From positions 1-24,432 of IMG/VR virus record IMGVR_UViG_3300025671_000513: a stretch of DNA of 24,432 nt; one strand, 5' to 3'. Positions 1-24,432 of the stretch are shown here, piece after piece; within the stretch, counting starts at the first letter, position 1, and each line of letters starts with the position of its first letter. Under the pieces are notes generated by a model that saw only the letters and a program-made list of their open reading frames with translations, did no database searches and was not told the DNA's origin. Source of the DNA: a virus. A program made the translations under genes and the position numbers.

Positions 1-249
1 CCCAAGATGACGATAGACCATATCAACAACGATAAACTTGATAATAGGTTGGAGAACCTACGACTAACGACCAATGCGTTTAATTGTAGAAGGAGGGAAT
101 ATAACAAACTCAATATGGAACTCGCAGAAGAGATTAGAGATTTGTATTCAAAAAATATTTATAGTTATTCACAACTGGCAGCGATGTTTGATGTTGCCAA
201 AACCACAATTTCAAATTGTATAACAGGAAAAACTTGGAACAAGATATGA
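1..249 (+). CDS. HNH homing endonuclease, C-terminal part (5' end outside window)
   Basis: The frame is open from base 1, so the gene starts upstream of the window. The visible 82 residues begin with the second half of an HNH_3-type nuclease site: a T-I-D-H-I-N-N-D-K stretch followed by N-R-L-E-N-L-R-L and a late N, which matches the family pattern H-x-D-x-(N)-N-x-x-x-N-L. Residues about 38-80 (counting from ATG at 7) look like a helix-turn-helix DNA-binding tail (S-Q-L-A-A-M-F-D-V-A-K-T-T-I-S-N). Free-standing HNH endonucleases of this type nick or cut phage DNA and spread by homing. Its TGA stop overlaps the ATG of the tail chaperone (ATGA), so it is inserted into the late operon without breaking it. 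The family call is firm; whether the enzyme is intact cannot be judged. Confidence 0.85.
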   Translation, partial: PKMTIDHINNDKLDNRLENLRLTTNAFNCRRREYNKLNMELAEEIRDLYSKNIYSYSQLAAMFDVAKTTISNCITGKTWNKI

Positions 250-911
250 GTATTAACTTAACGATAGACGGACAGAAATACTCCGTAAAGGAACGATTAA
301 CACTTGGGGAGTATATGACCCTACAGAAGATACAGAAAGGGGATTTATCCACCCCCAAATTACTTGAGACAATTACTGGTGTTCCTGAAAAGGAAATCAA
401 AAAGATTGATAGTAAAAGAACATTATATCTTGTTAATAAGATTATGAAGGAGAAGATGGAGGATAAGAAGAACCCCGTTCAAGCAACCTTTGAGTTTAAT
501 GGTAAGTTATATGGACTTGAAACAGATTTAACAAAACTTAACTTTGGGGGTTGGATAGATTTGGAAACCTTTATCAGTTTGGGGTTCAACGATAATCTAA
601 ATAAGATTGTGGCACTTTATTACAGACCCATACAAGCACAATTAGGTAAGAAGTATATATTAGAACCTTACGACACCGATGATTGTTTAAAACGAGCAGA
701 AGAGTTCTTGGAACTCCCCTTTGATATTGTATCAGGAGCATCGCGTTTTTTTTTGACCTTTACAAAGACATATACAGAAGATACGCTACATATTTTGAGA
801 CGGAGGAACCAGAGAATGAAGAGGAGGTTGAAGGCAGTAAGTTATATGAAGAAGATACTACCGAACTGGCTGGTTGGGAAAATACCGCAAGGTTTTACCA
901 AACCCAACTGA
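246..911 (+). CDS. Tail assembly chaperone, short form (lambda gpG-like role)
   Basis: This 221-residue protein lies several genes upstream of the tape measure, the usual neighbourhood of siphovirus tail assembly chaperones, which coat the tape measure and recruit tube subunits. The start at 246 is preferred over an upstream ATG at 216 because it gives a 4-base ATGA overlap with the HNH stop. Residues 1-169 look like a normal soluble mixed alpha/beta domain. After a T9 run (746-754) the zero frame yields only a basic tail of about 52 residues rich in R and K (RRR, KRR), ending at 911. The -1 frame instead stays open to 1060. No sequence family is recognised directly; the role is inferred from position plus the frameshift signature typical of G/GT genes. 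Confidence 0.6.
   Translation: MSINLTIDGQKYSVKERLTLGEYMTLQKIQKGDLSTPKLLETITGVPEKEIKKIDSKRTLYLVNKIMKEKMEDKKNPVQATFEFNGKLYGLETDLTKLNFGGWIDLETFISLGFNDNLNKIVALYYRPIQAQLGKKYILEPYDTDDCLKRAEEFLELPFDIVSGASRFFLTFTKTYTEDTLHILRRRNQRMKRRLKAVSYMKKILPNWLVGKIPQGFTKPN
746..755 (+). other. Probable -1 ribosomal frameshift (slippery) site
   Basis: Nine consecutive T are followed by G. In the zero frame the codons read CGT TTT TTT TTG, so both T TTT TTT (746-752) and T TTT TTG (749-755) fit the X XXY YYZ slippery pattern. A -1 slip moves ribosomes from the short chaperone frame into an ORF that runs without a stop to 1060. No obvious downstream pseudoknot was seen by eye. A homopolymer sequencing error is the alternative explanation. 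Confidence 0.65.
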
Positions 912-1060
912 TGACTTTGGCTCAAGACGACATAACAAAGATTGATATAATTTTAAAATACTCAACGAGTAGATGTTTTAACTATTTATCATATATCAAG
1001 GACAAACAGACAAGAGAATTAAACGCCATAAAGAAAGCAAGACAAAAACAAAATAGATGA
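752..1060 (+). CDS. Tail assembly chaperone, frameshifted C-terminal extension (gpT-like)
   Basis: Read in the -1 frame from codon TTT at 752, this segment encodes 102 residues beginning F-D-L-Y-K-D-I-Y-R-R-Y. It continues through an acidic stretch (E-T-E-E-P-E-N-E-E-E-V-E) to a basic end (K-K-A-R-Q-K-Q-N-R). It has no start codon of its own near the junction. Its TGA stop (1058-1060) overlaps the ATG of the next gene (1057) in the same ATGA arrangement used elsewhere in this operon, which argues that the frame is translated. Joined to residues 1-169 of the short form it would give a protein of about 271 residues, a layout matching lambda G/GT. The extension would be expected to bind the tape measure. 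It also explains the apparent gap at 912-1056. Confidence 0.65.
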   Translation, partial: FDLYKDIYRRYATYFETEEPENEEEVEGSKLYEEDTTELAGWENTARFYQTQLMTLAQDDITKIDIILKYSTSRCFNYLSYIKDKQTRELNAIKKARQKQNR

Positions 1061-1545
1061 TATATCCTGAAATGACTTTTAATAGAGTGATTGACGAATT
1101 ATTCAAGTTCGCAAAATATCACAAACAGATAAACAATTATGGGTTTGGAAACCTTGTTGATTTTTCAAGAAGGAATGAAGAAGTTGATGATGTTAAATAC
1201 CCCCTATTTTTTATCACCCCACAGAATATCACATATAATAAAACGACAACAGAATATACGATTAGTATTGTCTTTGGTGATATATTACAGGAGGACTATG
1301 ATGATGGTAAGAACTCCATATCCAATATGAGTATGATTGCGAAGGATTTAATATCATACATTACCAACCCCCCATCTAACCCCAATTCCGTTGATTTAAC
1401 GGAGTTGTTTGATATATCTTTACCTGTAAGTGCTATACCCTTCCAAGAAAGATTTAACGACTATATCGGGGGTGTTTCATTAGACATAACATTTATTGTT
1501 AGAGATAGTATAAACACTTGTAGTGATATGGTAGTGATTGAGTAA
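1057..1545 (+). CDS. Tail terminator/completion-like protein
   Basis: A 162-residue soluble protein. Its middle has the pattern Y-P-L-F-F-I-T-P-Q (about 48-56), then strand-rich Y-T-I-S-I-V-F-G-D and a D-D-G-K-N-S-I-S-N-M segment leading to a helix (M-I-A-K-D-L-I-S-Y-I). This resembles small neck or tail-terminator proteins of phages of Bacteroidota, which cap the tail tube and join it to the head. The gene starts inside the stop of the chaperone extension and ends by overlapping the next ATG (TAATG), so translation is probably coupled. The family match is from memory of its general pattern, and a different connector role is possible. Confidence 0.4.
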   Translation: MIYPEMTFNRVIDELFKFAKYHKQINNYGFGNLVDFSRRNEEVDDVKYPLFFITPQNITYNKTTTEYTISIVFGDILQEDYDDGKNSISNMSMIAKDLISYITNPPSNPNSVDLTELFDISLPVSAIPFQERFNDYIGGVSLDITFIVRDSINTCSDMVVIE

Positions 1546-2090
1546 TGGAGGAGATGTTAGAAATACTCGTTAAACAACTCAAGGTTGAACTGGCAAAGAA
1601 ATACCAACCAAGAGAATATAATAAGAATAGGAATACAAAAGGTATTCCCAAAACGATAGGACAATATCCAAAGAACAACACAAAGAGATTGAGTGATAGT
1701 ATTGGATATGAGATAAGAGAGATTGATGGTGAAGAGATGGGACTTATTGTAATGGAAGATTATTATGAGTTCGTAGATAGGGGTAGAAACCCTGGTGGTA
1801 ATGGAAAACCTGGTAGTAAGGTTTTTAGAGACGCAATAGATACTTGGGTTAGACAGAAGATAGGAACATTCCCCGGTCTTTCATTTGAGACAACATCGTT
1901 TCTTGTTAGACGAAGTGTCTGGATGAAAGGTATTGGGGGAATAAACTTTATAAACAACGCAATTGATAATATAATAGATGAGATGGTAGATAAAGGTGAG
2001 GACGAGTTCGCAGAACAATTTGAAGAGTTCGTAGATGAAAAACTATTGGTATTATCAAGAAGTTCAAGAGATATAACATATAATCAATAA
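1545..2090 (+). CDS. HK97 gp10-like neck/tail protein
   Basis: This 181-residue protein has an N-terminal helix (M-L-E-I-L-V-K-Q-L-K-V-E-L), a stretch with many K, R and N residues, and then Y-Y-E-F-V-D-R-G-R-N-P-G-G (about 68-80). The last segment resembles the Y-x-x-F-V-E-x-G motif of the HK97 gp10 family of neck or tail-completion proteins. The following S-F-L-V-R-R-S-V-W-M fits the place of that family's 'PFLxPA' segment. An acidic helix (D-E-F-A-E-Q-F-E-E-F-V-D-E) is near the end. It overlaps its neighbours on both sides by one base (TAATG). It probably acts at the head-tail junction, but the exact family is uncertain because the sequence is divergent. Confidence 0.5.
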   Translation: MEEMLEILVKQLKVELAKKYQPREYNKNRNTKGIPKTIGQYPKNNTKRLSDSIGYEIREIDGEEMGLIVMEDYYEFVDRGRNPGGNGKPGSKVFRDAIDTWVRQKIGTFPGLSFETTSFLVRRSVWMKGIGGINFINNAIDNIIDEMVDKGEDEFAEQFEEFVDEKLLVLSRSSRDITYNQ

Positions 2091-3820
2091 TGGGACAGAT
2101 TAGTATAATAAAAGATATTGAGGGGACACAACCAACATTATCCCCCGACAATTATTTTGTGGTTTCAGCAACCACAAATGAAGAGTTTAATTTTAGATAT
2201 GTATATGATTTATATGTCTTTGGTGAAAAGGTCTTTACAGGTAAATTAACCCCCAACCCTGAAGGTTTAGGTATTATCCCCGTAGGAGAGATTATACACG
2301 ATTACGCAAGGAACGCACCCATAGCATTTTCAGCAACAACAGGTGGTGGTGGAACATCATTATTCGTTCATCAAACAGAATACTTTACAACCCCTCAACA
2401 GAACGAGGTGGTGAATTGGTGGGCTAATTTCGGTGAAGAACATTCATCAACCATTTCATCACAACCTATAGGGTATAGTGGTATTGGTTCAGGGACAGGA
2501 GACCCAGCATATCCATCAGGACTACAAAGGAGTTTCTTGGGGACTATGGGTAGAAATATATTTTCTAACTTACCCAAGTTGGATACGGACAAGTTTTTTA
2601 TGAGTGGTTATGATGGGACATTCCCCTCATACCAATCGTTGTTCTTAACCAACTCACCAAGAATAAGAGACATAGGAGAAGATGATTATTTCACATTATC
2701 TGCGTTGAATTATATACTACCAAGTGAAGCAGAACCAAATGGTGATTACTCTTATGTATATGATTGTGAATATAATTTTTATGATAATGAAGGAGCATTA
2801 ATATCAGGTTATACCACATCTAATACAAGAGAAAATGGTGGAGGCCCCAGAAATACTTGTGATGAAGATTATGAGAATTATTCATTACCCACAGATGAGA
2901 CACAGGACTATTGGAATGTGGTTCATATCGCAGCAGGAACAAAGAACCTGTTTATACCAAGTGGAACAAAATATTATACACTTCAATTAAGGGGTGTTCC
3001 TTCACCCCCTCCCCCGACACCCACTCCCACAACCTTACCAGAGGGTTATACATCGTGGAGATTAAGAAGTTGTTGTAATCCTGAAAACACAATACTCGCA
3101 GGTATTCAAAGTGGATATACGGGGTCTGTAAGGGTTTATAACAATACCTGTTATTATGCTGACGAACAGATTTCAGGAGCGGCAATACTCATAGCAGGAG
3201 GAGCCACCCATGCCAATTGTGATGCGTGTAAATTACAATATCCTTGTCGGGCTCAACCAACAAAGGCAGCAAACTACCCGACCCCCACTCCCACTTATGA
3301 CCCATCATCACCTCCATCGGGTAGTAGAAGTAGTTGTCCTGATTGGGATTATTCAAGTGAGATATTCCAATTCAATATTGTAGATGATTGTGATAATCCT
3401 TATGATACAAACCAGTTCTTATTTAAGAACAGATATGGAACTTGGGATTATTTCAAGTTTAATAAAAAGAAGATAGAACAGATTGAAATAGATAGGGAAA
3501 GATACAACCAATTTGATATTAGTTATGGTTCATCTAACCCCATTAAAACCCCTTATGCTCGTGGATTGACTGATTATGCGACACAGATAAGGGAGATACA
3601 CACATACAATACAGGGTTCATTAACGAACCTGATATGTATTACCTTGAGGAGTTATTCACATCAAATGATGTTTATATGATATTGGATAATGGTGTTCCA
3701 TTCCCGATAAACATTATATCCAACACATTTGATAAGAAGACGAAGGGTAGAGGAAAAGAATTAACAAATATTACCATTCAATTTGAGTTCGCTAATAACA
3801 TTAAATTATTGGATAAGTAA
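2090..3820 (+). CDS. Virion (tail) protein with inserted cysteine-rich domain between Pro-Thr linkers
   Basis: A 576-residue protein. Residues 1-300 are strand-rich and gapped by G/S/T-rich loops. At about 302-316 there is a P-S-P-P-P-P-T-P-T-P-T-T linker, followed by a compact domain of about 75 residues with R-S-C-C-N-P, N-T-C-Y-Y and C-D-A-C-K-L-Q-Y-P-C motifs. A second linker (P-T-P-T-P-T, then S-S-P-P-S-G-S) follows. The C-terminal part (F-L-F-K-N-R-Y-G-T-W-D-Y-F-K-F) returns to a conserved core that I associate with tail proteins of Bacteroidota phages. The linker-flanked insert is probably surface-exposed and may touch the host. It lies between the gp10-like gene and a larger tail protein, all overlapping by TAATG. 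The structural role is likely; the precise part (distal tail or baseplate) is inferred. Confidence 0.55.
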   Translation: MGQISIIKDIEGTQPTLSPDNYFVVSATTNEEFNFRYVYDLYVFGEKVFTGKLTPNPEGLGIIPVGEIIHDYARNAPIAFSATTGGGGTSLFVHQTEYFTTPQQNEVVNWWANFGEEHSSTISSQPIGYSGIGSGTGDPAYPSGLQRSFLGTMGRNIFSNLPKLDTDKFFMSGYDGTFPSYQSLFLTNSPRIRDIGEDDYFTLSALNYILPSEAEPNGDYSYVYDCEYNFYDNEGALISGYTTSNTRENGGGPRNTCDEDYENYSLPTDETQDYWNVVHIAAGTKNLFIPSGTKYYTLQLRGVPSPPPPTPTPTTLPEGYTSWRLRSCCNPENTILAGIQSGYTGSVRVYNNTCYYADEQISGAAILIAGGATHANCDACKLQYPCRAQPTKAANYPTPTPTYDPSSPPSGSRSSCPDWDYSSEIFQFNIVDDCDNPYDTNQFLFKNRYGTWDYFKFNKKKIEQIEIDRERYNQFDISYGSSNPIKTPYARGLTDYATQIREIHTYNTGFINEPDMYYLEELFTSNDVYMILDNGVPFPINIISNTFDKKTKGRGKELTNITIQFEFANNIKLLDK

Positions 3821-6141
3821 TGGATACACTACTATTAGTTAAAACACAGGACGCCAGTAGGACAAACTTTATGACCCCTATTGATTTGTATGATAATGTA
3901 TCCATACAGATAGACATACAAGATGGGGACTTATCAGGGTTTGAAAGAAGGAGTAATTACTCCAAGACATTCCGTGTGCCAGCAACCGATAATAATAGTG
4001 AAATATTCAAGTATTTCTATGAGGTTAATGGAACGGATTACAACCCCTATTCTGCTTTACCCTGTGTGGTTCAAATTAACGGAAACGATGTATTCCAAGG
4101 CACCTTAAGATTGAATGGTGTATATAGAAATAATCTATATGATGAGTATGAGGTTTATATCCTACAGGAGTTGGTGGATTTCAATTTATCTTTGGGAGAT
4201 AAAGAGTTAAAAGATTTTAATTGGACTGAATATAACCACGAAGTTAATTATGATAATATCACCGCATCGTGGAGTGCTACGACAGGTGATACACAAGGTA
4301 TATTCGGGGGTGATATAATATACCCTATGATTAATTATGGATTGTCTTATGATAGTTCAGGTAATAGGGAGTTTGATTATTGTATTGGTTCTTCCCCTTG
4401 TATCAATACAGACCCTGGTGCTCTTGAACCGAGTATATGGAGACCGGCAATCAGGATAAAGGCGATTGTTGATAAAATCTTTGAAGAGACAGGATATTCA
4501 TATAATAGTGAGTTCTTTGAAAGTCCTTACTTTAGATTATTATATATGGATTTGGGGTATGATAATGAGTTGGGTATATCATCACCAACATCGGGTGATA
4601 ATCTTAACTTATTCAAGGTTTTTACAAATGGTGAAAATGAGTATATATCATATTCAAAACACATAGGAGGCACCTACTTCCCCTTCAGGTCATTAAATCC
4701 AATAGGTTATGATTATTTGGATAATTATACTCTTGCTGAAACGAACATCACATTTGATGACCCCACCAATTATTTCTCCGTTCCAAAAGACGGAACATAC
4801 GGATTTTCAATAAGATTTTCATATACCAAAGCAGGTTCATTTAACGAAGATTTGAGATTTAAGGTTGAGGTAAGAAAGAGTGATACTTTAGAAGGACTAC
4901 CAACGGGAACAATTATAGATACGGATACTTATGACGCTGATGATACAGACCAACAAGCATTACAACTATTTTCACATAGTTTAACAGCAGGACAATATGT
5001 CGGGGTATTCATAGAGAGTGTAAGTGTTGGAACAGCAGGTTTTAACCAAATACAGACACTCATATTGAAACCTTATAGTTCAGCATATCCCAAACCACAA
5101 TTTCAGTTATATAGTTCCCCCACACTCACCTTAAGTGATTTTGAGGGGAATAAGAATATGCCAGATATTAAGGCAATTGACTTCATTAGAAGTATTATAA
5201 AAATGTTTAATTTGGTATTCATCGTTAATGATACAAAGACAATAACGATAGAACCATTTAACTACTATTTCAGGAATGAAAATAGACAGGTTAAGGATTG
5301 GACTGATAAGTTGGATACATCGTCTTCATACACGATTAAACCCTTTAGTTTTGATATTCCAAAATCACAGAGATTTACCTACTTAAGTTCAGGTGAAGAA
5401 AACTTGGGGAAATACTATGAATATCAATTTAACAAAATATATGGAAGAAAGTTATTAACAAAAAATAGTAATATTCTTAAGGGTGAAGATGTATTGGAAG
5501 TTCCATTTAGAAGTATCCCCACAGATACAATACCAAATAGTAATTATGTGATTATACCGGAGATGTATAAAATAGATGATGATGGTAAAAGAGTTCCAAC
5601 GACTACAGAACCCCATATCTTCTTCTGGTTGGGTAATAGATACTTCTATTCCAATTATCCATCTACAAGTAGTGTATGGAAGTTTAACGATGGTTCTACG
5701 ATACACGATTGGACTACATATCCCGCAGTATCACATTTATCAAGTATTGAACCTTCAACAGACCCAGACAATTTTAGTGATTTGAACTTTGAACCCACTT
5801 GGGATTTCTTTGCGAACAACACATCAAGTATTAACCAATTCACATCAAATAATGTCTTTAATACATTTCATTCACAACTATATAATGAGAAGTATAGTGA
5901 TGAAGCAAGAAAGTTCGTTGGTAAGTTCCTATTGACCCCACAGGATATAGGACAACTGAATATCAACGACAAGATATTCATTAAGGATAGTATGTATAGA
6001 ATTGAAAAAATAACGGGTGCTTCTTTAACAGAAAAGAAACTTACAGAAGTATCTTTAATAAAACAAATTGGGGGTGGTTTTTATTACACAGAAAGTCCTG
6101 TTGATAATCCAACCATACCACCAAATGACCCAATCCCATAA
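3820..6141 (+). CDS. Large tail protein (baseplate/tail-tip hub candidate)
   Basis: A 773-residue protein that opens with a domain containing S-N-Y-S-K-T-F-R-V-P-A-T-D-N-N (about 45-59), a pattern I associate with a tail protein of Bacteroidota phages. Later comes W-R-P-A-I-R-I-K-A-I-V-D-K-I-F-E-E-T-G-Y, a helix typical of the same proteins. The central part is rich in beta-strand and aromatic residues with no signal peptide. The end is Pro-rich (P-V-D-N-P-T-I-P-P-N-D-P-I-P). It lies directly upstream of the tape measure rather than downstream, where tail-tip genes usually sit. It could be a distal tail or hub protein; no enzymatic motif is seen. Confidence 0.5.
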   Translation: MDTLLLVKTQDASRTNFMTPIDLYDNVSIQIDIQDGDLSGFERRSNYSKTFRVPATDNNSEIFKYFYEVNGTDYNPYSALPCVVQINGNDVFQGTLRLNGVYRNNLYDEYEVYILQELVDFNLSLGDKELKDFNWTEYNHEVNYDNITASWSATTGDTQGIFGGDIIYPMINYGLSYDSSGNREFDYCIGSSPCINTDPGALEPSIWRPAIRIKAIVDKIFEETGYSYNSEFFESPYFRLLYMDLGYDNELGISSPTSGDNLNLFKVFTNGENEYISYSKHIGGTYFPFRSLNPIGYDYLDNYTLAETNITFDDPTNYFSVPKDGTYGFSIRFSYTKAGSFNEDLRFKVEVRKSDTLEGLPTGTIIDTDTYDADDTDQQALQLFSHSLTAGQYVGVFIESVSVGTAGFNQIQTLILKPYSSAYPKPQFQLYSSPTLTLSDFEGNKNMPDIKAIDFIRSIIKMFNLVFIVNDTKTITIEPFNYYFRNENRQVKDWTDKLDTSSSYTIKPFSFDIPKSQRFTYLSSGEENLGKYYEYQFNKIYGRKLLTKNSNILKGEDVLEVPFRSIPTDTIPNSNYVIIPEMYKIDDDGKRVPTTTEPHIFFWLGNRYFYSNYPSTSSVWKFNDGSTIHDWTTYPAVSHLSSIEPSTDPDNFSDLNFEPTWDFFANNTSSINQFTSNNVFNTFHSQLYNEKYSDEARKFVGKFLLTPQDIGQLNINDKIFIKDSMYRIEKITGASLTEKKLTEVSLIKQIGGGFYYTESPVDNPTIPPNDPIP

Positions 6142-6152
6142 TATTTATCAGT
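6139..6152 (+). promoter_or_regulatory. ATATTTATNRGT motif before tape measure start
   Basis: TAATATTTATCAGT abuts the ATG at 6153. The same core with the same spacing precedes starts at 9125, 18446 and 19882, and 24133 on the minus strand. It could be a phage-specific late promoter element or a translation-initiation element; no TTTG box lies at promoter distance upstream. Confidence 0.45.
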
Positions 6153-9110
6153 ATGGCGAGAACTATAGCAATTGAATTAGAAGTTAATGGTGTTAAGGAA
6201 AGTGTTAAAACTATAGGTGAGTTAGAAACCGCTATAGAACAATTAACAGAAGAACTTAAAAACACCGATATAGGAACGGAAAAGTTTAACCAATTAACAA
6301 ATGAGTTAAATAAAGCGAAGAGTGAATTAAAGACATTTGAAGCCAGTTTTGAGGGGTTAGACCCCCAACAAAAAACAGCCGCTTATGTCGCTTTCGCAGA
6401 GAGTGTGGCATCAGGTATATTGTTGGCACAGGAAGCGTTAAGGTCATTTGGTGTTGAAAATGAAAATGTTAATAATGCGGTTGAAGCATCAACAAGAGCA
6501 ATCAACATCGCACTTCAGGCTCGTATTCTTTTGGAGGGTGCTTTGGAAGCGAGATTGTTGGCAACAAGTATCGCACAAAAAGCGTTAAATACTTCTGTTG
6601 TGGCGGGGAACAAAGCCCTTAAGGTTTTATTCACAACCATAGCCGCGAACCCATTAGGAGCGGTTCTTGCTGTTGTTGGATTACTGGTGACTGCCTTTAT
6701 TTCTTTGAGTGATGCGACTGAAGAAAATACAGAAGAAACAGATAAGAACAACGAAGCACTTGAAAGACAGAACCAATTAAGGGAGGCTCAGGCTCGTATC
6801 ATACAACAAGCGGAAGATGAGATTAGAAGGGCAAGACAAGAGGGAATACAGGCGTTGAGAGACCAAGAGGATATATTGGAAAGAAGACAAGTTATATTAG
6901 ATGAGGAGGTTGATAGATTAAGGGATTTAGCAAGGGAACAATTACTTCAAATTAACCAACAAAAGATATTAACAGGTAGTGCTGAAGATTTGGAAAAGAT
7001 ATATGATGATTTAATTTCTCAAATAGAAATAGCGACAGAAGAAGCGGGGGCAAATGCGAAGGTATTGGAAGCCTTAAGAAAAGAGTTGGAGAACATAGAT
7101 AAACAAATATCTACCAACGAACTTGATAGGTTTAAAGGTGATTTGGAAGACGCAAGAAAGGAGTTAGATAAGTTAAATAGAAGTGTATTGGAGTTTGGTG
7201 AATTGCCTGAACCCCCCATCATTCAGGAATTACAGAGGTTGATTGAATTACAAAACAGATATATTGAACTTACAGATGAAAGTGAAAAATCGTTAAAAGA
7301 TATATTTAGTGATTTCTTTGTTGATGTTAAAGCAGCCACACAACAAACAGACGACTTTGGTATTGCTTGGGATAAGACAAGAGAGTTCTTAAGTGAGGCT
7401 TTCTCAACAGGTGATGTTGATGATTTCCAAAGAAGGATTACAGAAGTCCAAGAAGAATATTTGGGTGAAAGTTCAAACTTTACTGAAGAACAGAAGAGAG
7501 CCGTAGCGTCTCTATTATCACAATACTCTACCGCATTTGATACATTAACACGATTAGGTCTGGAAGTCCCTGAAGAGTTTAGAAGTGTGGTTTTACCCCT
7601 ATTAGATGGTATTGCTTCAAAGTTAAGATTGGAGGGTTCTATAAACTTTAGAGAGATAAGTGGTGAAGAAGAGATTTTAAGAACAAGTGATACTTTAACT
7701 GATTTGATAAATAATCTTGAAAGTTTAAATGAAACGACTGAAGGAACAGAGGATACATCATTATTTGATTTTGATTTGGAAGAGGATAGGATTGAAAGAA
7801 TTGGACTTGATATAAAAACCCTTCAAGAAGGAACTGAAGAGTTCTATGAAAGAAGAGATGAGTTAATTTCATTATTTAGTGAAAAATATTTGGAGACAGC
7901 GAGATTAAGAAAACTTGCTGATGAAGATGAAACAGCAGCACGAGAGGAAGCGTTAAAACTTGCTACAGAAACCGCTGATAATGTTATTAACACAATACAA
8001 GACATAGCAACAGCAGAAGATGTTATTAGAGGTGTTAATAACGAGGTGGAGGATTTAACAAGAAACCTTGCTGAAGGACAGGATAATATAAAAGTTATTA
8101 CTGGTGCTATTATAGAAAACTTTGATTTAATATCAAAAGAATATGACTTTACAAAGTTATTTGACCCCACAGCAGGTTTGGAACAAAACTTTCAACAGGT
8201 GATTACACTATTGGAGCAATTGGGACTTGAAGGGGTTGAAGTTATATTTGATACAGAAGAAGAAAAGAAAAATATTGTTGAGTTTTTCTTAAAACAAAGA
8301 GAAAACTTGTTAAAAGAAAATGCTGATGCTGAAAAGAAGACACAAGAAGAACTCGTCCAAGAGACATTAAATAATTACCAAGAGATAGTGAATGGGTTAA
8401 ATCAACTTACATTATCTTTGGGTGAAGCATCACAATTACAAATAGAAAGAATTGAAACAAGAAGAGAAGAGAGTTTGAATAACATAGTCGGTGATACTGA
8501 AGAAGCGGAAGCGTTAAGAGCAGAAATCACAGAACAAGCAAACAAAGAAATTGTTGAAATTGAAAGAAAGGCAAGGTTAAGGGAATTACAATTTACGAAG
8601 ATACAAGCGGTCGCTGACTTGGCACAGGCGTTAGTAAATGCTCAAAAATTACCCCCTCCATTTAATGTTATTCAATCAGGTATTGTATCAACCGCAGGTG
8701 GATTACAGATTGCGGTTATACAATCACAGATAGACGACTTACAGGGAGCACAAGGGTTCGCAACAGGAGGTTTTGTGTCTGGACCTGGCACTTCAACAAG
8801 TGATAGTATCCCCGCATTATTAAGTGATGGGGAGTTCGTAGTTAATGCGAAATCAACAAAGAGGTTCTTACCTTTGTTGGAAAAAATAAACAATCAAGAA
8901 GAACAATTTAGAAAGTTTAATAATGGGGGATTTGTGTTAGATGGTTCAAGTTTTATGGGTTCAACTATACAGAATAATTTTGATGATAGTAGAATTATAG
9001 AAGAATTGAGAAAAACACGACAAGAACCCCTACGAGCGTATGTATTTGAGAAGGATATTACTGAAGCCCAACAGATAGAAAAACGCTTACAAGAACTTTC
9101 CAAACTATAA
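6153..9110 (+). CDS. Tape measure protein
   Basis: At 985 residues this is the longest gene in the window. The first 70 residues form a helical coiled-coil-like segment. Residues about 158-186 are a hydrophobic membrane-type segment (L-G-A-V-L-A-V-V-G-L-L-V-T-A-F), as in many tape measures that enter the host envelope. Residues 200-860 are long charged helices rich in E, K, R and Q. Near the C-terminus is G-G-F-V-S-G-P-G-T-S-T-S-D-S-I-P-A-L-L-S followed by D-G-E-F-V-V-N-A, a segment very typical of phage tape measure C-termini. Using the known proportion of about 0.15 nm of tail per residue, tail length would be roughly 150 nm (inference). The upstream gap is 11 bases and carries the ATATTTATNRGT motif. 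No lysozyme or peptidase motif is seen. Confidence 0.92.
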   Translation: MARTIAIELEVNGVKESVKTIGELETAIEQLTEELKNTDIGTEKFNQLTNELNKAKSELKTFEASFEGLDPQQKTAAYVAFAESVASGILLAQEALRSFGVENENVNNAVEASTRAINIALQARILLEGALEARLLATSIAQKALNTSVVAGNKALKVLFTTIAANPLGAVLAVVGLLVTAFISLSDATEENTEETDKNNEALERQNQLREAQARIIQQAEDEIRRARQEGIQALRDQEDILERRQVILDEEVDRLRDLAREQLLQINQQKILTGSAEDLEKIYDDLISQIEIATEEAGANAKVLEALRKELENIDKQISTNELDRFKGDLEDARKELDKLNRSVLEFGELPEPPIIQELQRLIELQNRYIELTDESEKSLKDIFSDFFVDVKAATQQTDDFGIAWDKTREFLSEAFSTGDVDDFQRRITEVQEEYLGESSNFTEEQKRAVASLLSQYSTAFDTLTRLGLEVPEEFRSVVLPLLDGIASKLRLEGSINFREISGEEEILRTSDTLTDLINNLESLNETTEGTEDTSLFDFDLEEDRIERIGLDIKTLQEGTEEFYERRDELISLFSEKYLETARLRKLADEDETAAREEALKLATETADNVINTIQDIATAEDVIRGVNNEVEDLTRNLAEGQDNIKVITGAIIENFDLISKEYDFTKLFDPTAGLEQNFQQVITLLEQLGLEGVEVIFDTEEEKKNIVEFFLKQRENLLKENADAEKKTQEELVQETLNNYQEIVNGLNQLTLSLGEASQLQIERIETRREESLNNIVGDTEEAEALRAEITEQANKEIVEIERKARLRELQFTKIQAVADLAQALVNAQKLPPPFNVIQSGIVSTAGGLQIAVIQSQIDDLQGAQGFATGGFVSGPGTSTSDSIPALLSDGEFVVNAKSTKRFLPLLEKINNQEEQFRKFNNGGFVLDGSSFMGSTIQNNFDDSRIIEELRKTRQEPLRAYVFEKDITEAQQIEKRLQELSKL

Positions 9111-23713: not shown

Positions 23714-24133
23714 TTATAATCCATTATCTTCCTTTTCTTGGTATGGTATATCGTCCATCTCCAAAATAACCCCGTATTTCTCCTCTATTCGTTTTTGGAA
23801 TTGTTTATAAATTGGTTGGGTTGTATCATATCCCATATTGTTTAGGTATAGTTCCAAATCATCATCATCAAATGGTGTTGGATATACTCTTAAATGTTTT
23901 CCTGTTTGAGCGACATAAGCAGTCCCATATTGCTCGTTCATAGTTGGTTTCCTGTATTTCTCGTATCTTTCTTTCTTCTTACAGGTGGAACAATATATAT
24001 CAACACCAAAGGTCTTGTATTTGTTCTTATACATATACCTCTCGTCCTTGTATTCCTCACATCTTACACAGAAGTAATGCCATAGTCCATTCTCTCCCAT
24101 ATATCTTTTCTTTTCTTTAATCGGTCTTCCCAT
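23714..24133 (-). CDS. Zinc-ribbon protein (139 residues)
   Basis: A basic N-terminus (G-R-P-I-K-E-K-K-R) is followed by F-C-V-R-C (Cys22, Cys25) and Y-C-S-T-C-K-K-K (Cys48, Cys51), a four-Cys zinc ribbon like that preceding HNH nucleases or in small phage DNA-binding proteins. No HNH motif follows. The rest is helical and acidic (F-D-D-D-D-L-E-L-Y-L), with no recognised domain. It is the first gene of the minus-strand operon, with a promoter ending next to its start codon. It is probably nucleic-acid or protein binding; a specific role is not visible. Confidence 0.65.
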   Translation of the reverse strand: MGRPIKEKKRYMGENGLWHYFCVRCEEYKDERYMYKNKYKTFGVDIYCSTCKKKERYEKYRKPTMNEQYGTAYVAQTGKHLRVYPTPFDDDDLELYLNNMGYDTTQPIYKQFQKRIEEKYGVILEMDDIPYQEKEDNGL

Positions 24134-24138
24134 ACCAA

Positions 24139-24169
24139 TAAATATAAGATATAAAAAAAAAGTTTCAAA
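24139..24169 (-). promoter_or_regulatory. Promoter of the minus-strand operon, near-leaderless
   Basis: On the minus strand TTTG (24166-24169), 19 bases, then TATATTTA (24139-24146), one base off the Bacteroidota -7 consensus. An overlapping sigma-70-like reading is TTGAAA, 16 bases, TATATT. The box ends 5 bases before the ATG at 24133, so the mRNA may lack a leader. The bases TATATTTATTGGT before this ATG also match the ATATTTATNRGT motif of the plus-strand genes. Confidence 0.7.
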
Positions 24170-24210
24170 TGATTTGACTTTTTTGATATGATTTAGTATT
24201 TATAGTTATA

Positions 24211-24432
24211 CTTCAAGATTGGATACAGGTGTTGTAAGGACTTTCACCTCCAAGACAAGAAGTTCTCTTTAAATCTCGCTATAGTCGTTCTAGGGACTTA
24301 TGACTGATTGAGAGCCTCAAAACTACTGAAGTAGTTAAGAAAGGTAGAGTTCCCCTCCCCTACATAACACTCTTAATTGAGTGGGGGGCCTGGGGGGACT
24401 TAATTTTTCTACCTAAAACTACTGGTCTATTA
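24211..24432 (+). ncRNA. Candidate structured non-coding RNA, 3' end outside window
   Basis: No ORF of note covers this stretch, but several helices can be drawn. (1) CTTC 24211-24214 with GAAG 24259-24262, TTGG 24219-24222 with CCAA 24250-24253, AGGTG 24227-24231 with CACCT 24245-24249. (2) TCTC 24274-24277 with GAGA 24310-24313, AGTC 24283-24286 with GACT 24302-24305. (3) AACTAC-TGAA-GTAGTT 24321-24336. (4) A long arm: AGGTAGA 24342-24348 with TCTACCT 24408-24414, GTTCCCCT 24349-24356 with GGGGGGAC 24392-24399 (two G-T pairs), CCCC 24357-24360 with GGGG 24385-24388, CACTC 24368-24372 with GAGTG 24379-24383. The G-T pairs favour the plus strand. GC-rich helices in such AT-rich DNA are unusual. 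A TATTTATAGT element at 24197-24206 could mark its promoter. The family is unknown; a replication origin or packaging site is an alternative. Confidence 0.5.

Follow-up and report, generated by a model that had tools for sequence, protein, structure and literature searches.

A predicted structured RNA at the right end of a viral contig: a candidate new family of stand-alone phage RNA in a genomic slot of variable content

The locus at the right end of the contig

The window analyzed here spans an entire linear viral contig (24,432 bases), with the RNA at its right edge. To the left of the RNA lies a minus-strand gene for a 139-aa zinc-ribbon protein, and the gap between the two holds a pair of divergent promoter-like sites, one in front of the RNA and its mirror image in front of the gene (Table 1). 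An earlier note on this DNA had described a TATTTATAGT element before the RNA (24197-24206), which we found to belong to the rightward site TTTG-N20-TATTTAT, and a divergent placement beside a minus-strand promoter, which is indeed the arrangement seen here. The pattern TTTG-N19..21-TATTTAT has two sites in the 24-kb window, both in this gap, and we take it to resemble the Bacteroidota promoter TTTG / TAnnTTTG. In addition, TATTTAT followed by 4-5 bases and ATG precedes gene starts at 6142, 9113, 18434, 19870 (plus strand) and 24144 (minus strand); the four plus-strand sites have no TTTG at N19-21 and may represent a start signal or the promoter of leaderless transcripts.

From about 24210, a start implied by the position of the promoter, the window is the 5' part of a predicted non-coding structured RNA, and the contig end cuts off the remainder. 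As a correction to the first reading, the RNA is to be regarded as incomplete in the window, because the predicted pairing partner of positions 24236-24255, a 3' strand seen in L032 and L003, lies past the end of the window. These two contigs contain the complete RNA, which has a length of about 300-350 nt, and comparison with them indicates that about 65-130 nt of the 3' portion are absent from the window.

The open reading frame check gave no coding frame of note across the RNA region, in agreement with the earlier description of it as non-coding. The RNA had also been described as unlike tRNA, tmRNA, ribozyme or intron, and this held: no tRNA or tmRNA was detected in the window by ARAGORN, and at the curated thresholds of Rfam 15 zero families matched in the window or in eight relatives, with the models of ROOL, GOLLD, group I and group II introns and known ribozymes all included. 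Moreover, the RNA locus is intergenic and has its own promoter-like site, whereas an intron would lie in an interrupted host gene. A permissive Rfam search (E up to 10) returned only sub-threshold chance matches, and the families named by it were rejected since their scores were under the curated cut-offs.

Table 1. Features of the RNA locus in the window (RNA elements are predictions).
Feature	Position	Strand	Details
139-aa zinc-ribbon gene, weakly like endonuclease VII	23714..24133	-	PHROG E 0.001-0.006; divergent neighbour of the RNA
Promoter-like site of the 139-aa gene	24138..24169	-	TTTG 24169-24166, 21-nt spacer, TATTTAT 24144-24138
Promoter-like site of the RNA	24173..24203	+	-33 box TTTG 24173-24176, 20-nt spacer, -7 box TATTTAT 24197-24203
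Structured RNA, 5' part	24210..24432	+	homologues L003, L031, L032, L033; folding; start approximate
Local alternative AGGUG/CACCU	24227-24231/24245-24249	+	competes with the long-range closing helices
Closing helix Pa, 5' strand AAGGACUUUC	24236-24245	+	partner GAAAGUCCUU in L032, beyond the window
Closing helix Pb, 5' strand UCCAAGA	24249-24255	+	partner UCUUGGA in L032, beyond the window
Arm H1, UCUCG/UGAGA and UAGUCGU/AUGACUG	24274..24313	+	pairs kept in L003; GC to AU change between rows
Conserved motif, 5' copy GCCUCAAAACUACU	24314..24327	+	GCCUCAAAAC-W-ACU, same in L003, L031, L032, L033 except W
Hairpin AACUAC-UGAA-GUAGUU	24321..24336	+	GUAGUU may instead pair with AACUAC 24417-24422
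Long arm with C- and G-tracts	24338..24410	+	AU to UA compensatory change vs L031
Conserved motif, 3' copy ACCUAAAACUACU	24411..24423	+	ACCUAAAACUAC in L031, L032, L033; ACCUAAAACAAC in L003

Structural elements of the RNA

The hairpins that the earlier note had drawn at the right end are present in the sequence, the long arm and the 6-bp hairpin in amended form. The long arm, formerly placed at 24342-24414, was off by about 4 bases; its strands are AGAAAGGU/AUUUUUCU followed by GAGUUCCCC/GGGGGACUU, and its lower helix has pair probabilities of 0.85-0.93 in the window. The 6-bp hairpin with a UGAA loop exists but is only one of two alternative pairings, and L031 and L032 favour the other: in these two RNAs the pair probabilities of GUAGUU are 0.53-0.94 for long-range pairing with the second AACUAC versus 0.05-0.28 for local pairing, while in the truncated window the first AACUAC copy is preferred.

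The two closing helices Pa and Pb would join the 5' strands of the window to the 3' end of the full-length RNA. At the 3' end of L003 the partners are AAAGUCCUU for Pa and UCUUGG for Pb, with strands near-identical to those of L032, and there is hardly any variation in these helices between the two RNAs. Their pair probabilities are 0.82-1.0 where measured, Pb in L003 being taken from the minimum-energy fold. Reading 24227-24249 as a simple hairpin was ranked behind this long-range pairing, the partner of which is visible in full-length L032. In L031 and L033 the closing domain is absent and the core is preceded by a short hairpin.

Homologues and mobility

RNA members were found in five viral contigs, namely the window, L003, L031, L032 and L033. 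The 139-aa neighbour gene served as the lead to L002 and L003, and a motif scan of viral contigs gave L031, L032 and L033. In L003 the promoter region and the first ~50 RNA bases are nearly unchanged and the rest has diverged, with GCCUCAAAAC-W-AC and ACCUAAAAC-W-AC retained. The window and L032 share 24197-24432 as their sole common DNA, at 94.6% identity, and the terminases of L032 and of the window's group (represented by L002) are 36% identical. The site TTTG-N20-TATTTAT also precedes the RNA in L031 and L033, L003 has TTG-N19-TATTTAT, and L032 has TATTTAT without TTTG at such spacing; the mirror promoter, with TTTG-N20 or N21, is also present in L031, L033 and L008. We are confident, from these comparisons, that promoter and RNA travel together as a self-contained cassette among distantly related phages.

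A wider motif scan of viral contigs gave no new members, 24 of its 28 matches being other sequences, nearly all inside long open frames, and a blastn search of phages and plasmids with the RNA gave nothing useful. Public bacterial genomes scanned for the zinc-ribbon protein and the terminase contained no relative and hence no host prophage. The carrier phages probably infect Bacteroidota, as suggested by the promoter style and by phages of Phocaeicola and Flavobacterium with distantly related terminases.

Three further observations concern the relatives. Window positions 1-7729 are 99.7% identical to L007, the early region of which is rearranged and diverged, so that the window phage population appears strongly mosaic. 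The RNA 5' end recurs in L003 (3582-3600) as an exact 19-nt match (TTATACTTCAAGATTGGAT), which lies within the loop of a hairpin with the stem AACCGAC/GTCGGTT, upstream of the promoter of the RNA. L003, a related phage with rearranged gene order, encodes a DruA-domain protein at 4738-5835 (PF14236, 2.3e-16).

Evidence for the structure

The earlier note had named homologues as the test of the structure, and the diverged homologues retain pairs through compensatory changes. In the H1 region of L003, defined as the stretch between the anchors AAA and GCC, most helix positions differ from the window, and all 9 of the 9 tested pairs are kept with the same bulges, 5 of them with both bases changed; such retention was equalled by 8 of 200,000 shuffles. 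In the four-row core alignment 29/29 pairs are standard in every row, compared with 32-48% when the partner was slid. The 2 double-change pairs of this alignment were reached by 93/500 shuffles, a set too small to decide alone.

Folding also points to the plus strand. At full length the window had z scores of -2.1 to -2.2 on the plus strand and -0.65 on the minus strand; for the core, the plus-strand values were -3.1 in the window (0/200 shuffles), -3.8 in L032 and -3.8 in L031, versus -1.2, -2.0 and -1.8 on the minus strand. L003 folds slightly better than its shuffles (z -1.5). The covariance model R1, the E-values of which are rough, gave L003 15.5 bits, level with chance matches; because R1 does not recover L003 above chance, we regard this RNA as homologous on the basis of its context, its identical 5' block and the motifs it shares.

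The evidence base for the family consists of four distinct RNAs, one of them badly diverged, and covariation support for the predicted structure is thin. Nevertheless, since several independent lines agree, we judge the RNA to be real and very probably a new family of stand-alone phage RNA. The possibility of a new family raised earlier is thus supported: homologues exist, their context is mostly kept and compensatory changes are seen. Strand, fold, family and cassette behaviour, taken jointly, are likewise assigned with high confidence from the comparison of the contigs.

The genomic slot and its alternative contents

Zinc-ribbon homologues adjoin the locus in L003, L031, L033, L006 and L008, and what fills the slot flanked by the zinc-ribbon gene and the holin-terminase genes varies among relatives. 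The RNA occupies this slot in the window, L031, L033 and L003, while in L032 it lies one gene further from the zinc-ribbon gene. In L002 and L006 the slot holds a different structured RNA on the opposite strand. L002 is 99.3% identical to the window until 24174 and then continues with different sequence containing this other RNA; two near-identical phage genomes with different structured RNAs in the slot thus provide a natural comparison. In L008, L009 and L010 the promoter TTTG-N20-TATTTAT is followed by genes for 47-aa, 257-aa replication-initiation and 132-aa proteins. The 257-aa protein of L008 matches replication initiation families (phrog_270, 4e-12; phrog_428, 1e-6), and two perfect 23-nt direct repeats, 24 nt apart and iteron-like, lie inside its gene (L008:4682-4728).

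The record of L031 (G1) comprises 27,476 bases and is probably complete because it has terminal repeats of 246 bases at 98.4% identity. Profile search of nearly all of its genes, a method that may miss genes, gave no credible replication gene; the matches included portal, tape measure, protease, methyltransferase and HNH nuclease. A match to a helicase-labelled family was rejected, since it falls on a methyltransferase piece. GC skew followed the gene strand and marked no origin.

The other RNA, here called type A, is about 440 nt long (L002:3940-4390, plus strand; L006:4952-5386, minus strand) and has the promoter-like sequence TATATTTATTGTTAGAC, seven double-change pairs, an intrinsic terminator before the zinc-ribbon gene and a possible pseudoknot (CACCAU/AUGGUG to CAUCAU/AUGAUG). 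It was rejected as a distant relative in the same family, as model R1 fails to detect it, and scanning with the pattern AAAAGGTATATGRTGGTT turned up no additional RNA of type A.

Comparison with known RNAs

Phages and prophages encode the large structured RNAs ROOL and GOLLD, which have no assigned function, and many GOLLD RNAs exceed 800 nt (PMC12286853). The earlier comparison with them stands insofar as the present RNA is a phage-borne structured RNA of unknown role, but it does not extend to a model match, to size or to window tRNA genes: ROOL and GOLLD are often near tRNA islands, whereas ARAGORN found zero tRNA in the window. The RNA described here, of about 300-350 nt and without an Rfam match, is also smaller than both, ROOL being roughly 580 nt.

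ColE1 RNA II, a structured transcript of several hundred nt, is a replication preprimer that allows replication without an initiator protein. The likeness would be an analogy of function only, drawn from the slot and the missing replication genes; there is no Rfam sequence match, and the carrier here is a phage, not a plasmid. As for an antisense partner of the RNA I type, a divergent promoter is present, but it points away from the RNA and serves the 139-aa gene. The packaging RNA of phi29 (pRNA, about 174 nt, from protein-primed phages) is similarly a phage-encoded structured RNA near packaging genes. However, the window and its relatives have no Rfam match to it, a terminase pair is present here, and the RNA lies several genes from the terminase, in an order that is changed in L003.

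Possible role of the RNA and alternative explanations

It is rare for a structured RNA to have its own promoter and to pass from phage to phage, and what the known examples, ROOL and GOLLD, do is unsolved; here the slot offers a concrete functional hint, as the RNA lies where relatives hold a replication initiator. Our best explanation as a whole, which we put forward tentatively and at somewhat less than even chance, is a new-family RNA cassette acting in phage replication. The RNA polymerase of the host would initiate near 24210 and transcribe rightward; the RNA would fold into a domain closed by the two long-range helices and containing arm H1, the long arm and the two CCU(C)AAAAC-W-AC motif copies, and it would start or regulate phage DNA replication locally, as a primer or origin transcript or as its controller. 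A role in replication initiation or control, considered by itself, is possible but on the unlikely side. It is suggested because the same promoter drives a replication-initiation gene in relatives and because G1 lacks a recognisable replication gene, and we word it conditionally because it rests on the slot and on an absence. That a mobile RNA replaced the initiator protein in small tailed phages, the divergent promoter yielding either initiator mRNA or an RNA that primes or controls replication, seems doubtful.

An RNA that acts in trans or binds a protein has about the same likelihood as the replication role, and such an accessory RNA (a moron) with its own promoter and unrelated to replication is a serious, if tentative, alternative. 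The repeated CCU(C)AAAAC-W-AC would in that case bind a host or phage protein or pair with a target, for example in anti-defence or in altered host expression. The promoter-like site and the movement of the RNA between distant phages would both fit, as would the motif itself, since both copies are conserved while adjacent pairs change, and in L003 both carry the same U-to-A change while the middle strand has no matching change. However, the replication operon in the slot of relatives would be left unexplained, and an antisense target search of the RNA against the rest of the window gave no excess complementarity.

A leader or attenuator that acts in cis on the rightward holin-terminase operon, with the alternative pairing of GUAGUU switching expression, is improbable. 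The genes to the right of the RNA are co-directional in the window group and L031, and the two alternative pairings do exist. However, in L031 an intrinsic terminator separates the RNA region from the next gene, and in L032 and L003 a promoter of the TTTG-TAnnTTTG type, read off the sequence, stands directly behind the RNA, both of which favour a separate transcript over a leader. Further, the terminase operon of L003 is oppositely directed and other genes follow the RNA there, and there is no terminator hairpin that competes with the switch. A possible further small RNA lies behind the RNA core of L031 (2890-3050, plus strand), where another promoter-like sequence, TATATTTAT, is accompanied by the closing stem GUGAUACUAU/AUAGUAUCAC and a terminator.

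Still less probable is a DNA element, in which the hairpins would form on single-stranded or cruciform DNA as an origin or packaging site. Its divergent intergenic position beside the replication slot would suit such an element, and the window and L033 contigs end at the same point within it. However, 5/29 pairs are G-U in every row of the four-row core alignment, which bears out the earlier argument that wobble pairs exist only on the plus strand; the plus strand folds more strongly than the minus strand; and a promoter stands immediately in front. Moreover, the L031 and L032 contigs continue through the element, and the two that break off there have their other end in common as well, inside a mobile HNH gene, for which reason we set aside the idea that the common stop marks a genome terminus or packaging site.

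That the RNA end of the window was joined from another phage by chimeric assembly is highly improbable: the departure of L002 at 24174 and the high identity of 24197-24432 to a distant phage would agree with it, but in the close relative L003 this promoter and 5' block lie within the contig, window 24154-24210 matches L008 too, the order of promoter and RNA is identical in L031 and L033, and the RNA exists in other contigs whatever the junction.

The window and the L033 record (G002) are independent contigs, yet their ends nearly coincide on both sides: one lies within the HNH gene and the other 10 nt past the second AACTAC of the RNA, with the same 4 kb missing from both; these shared stops are probably assembly breaks at sequence common to phages.
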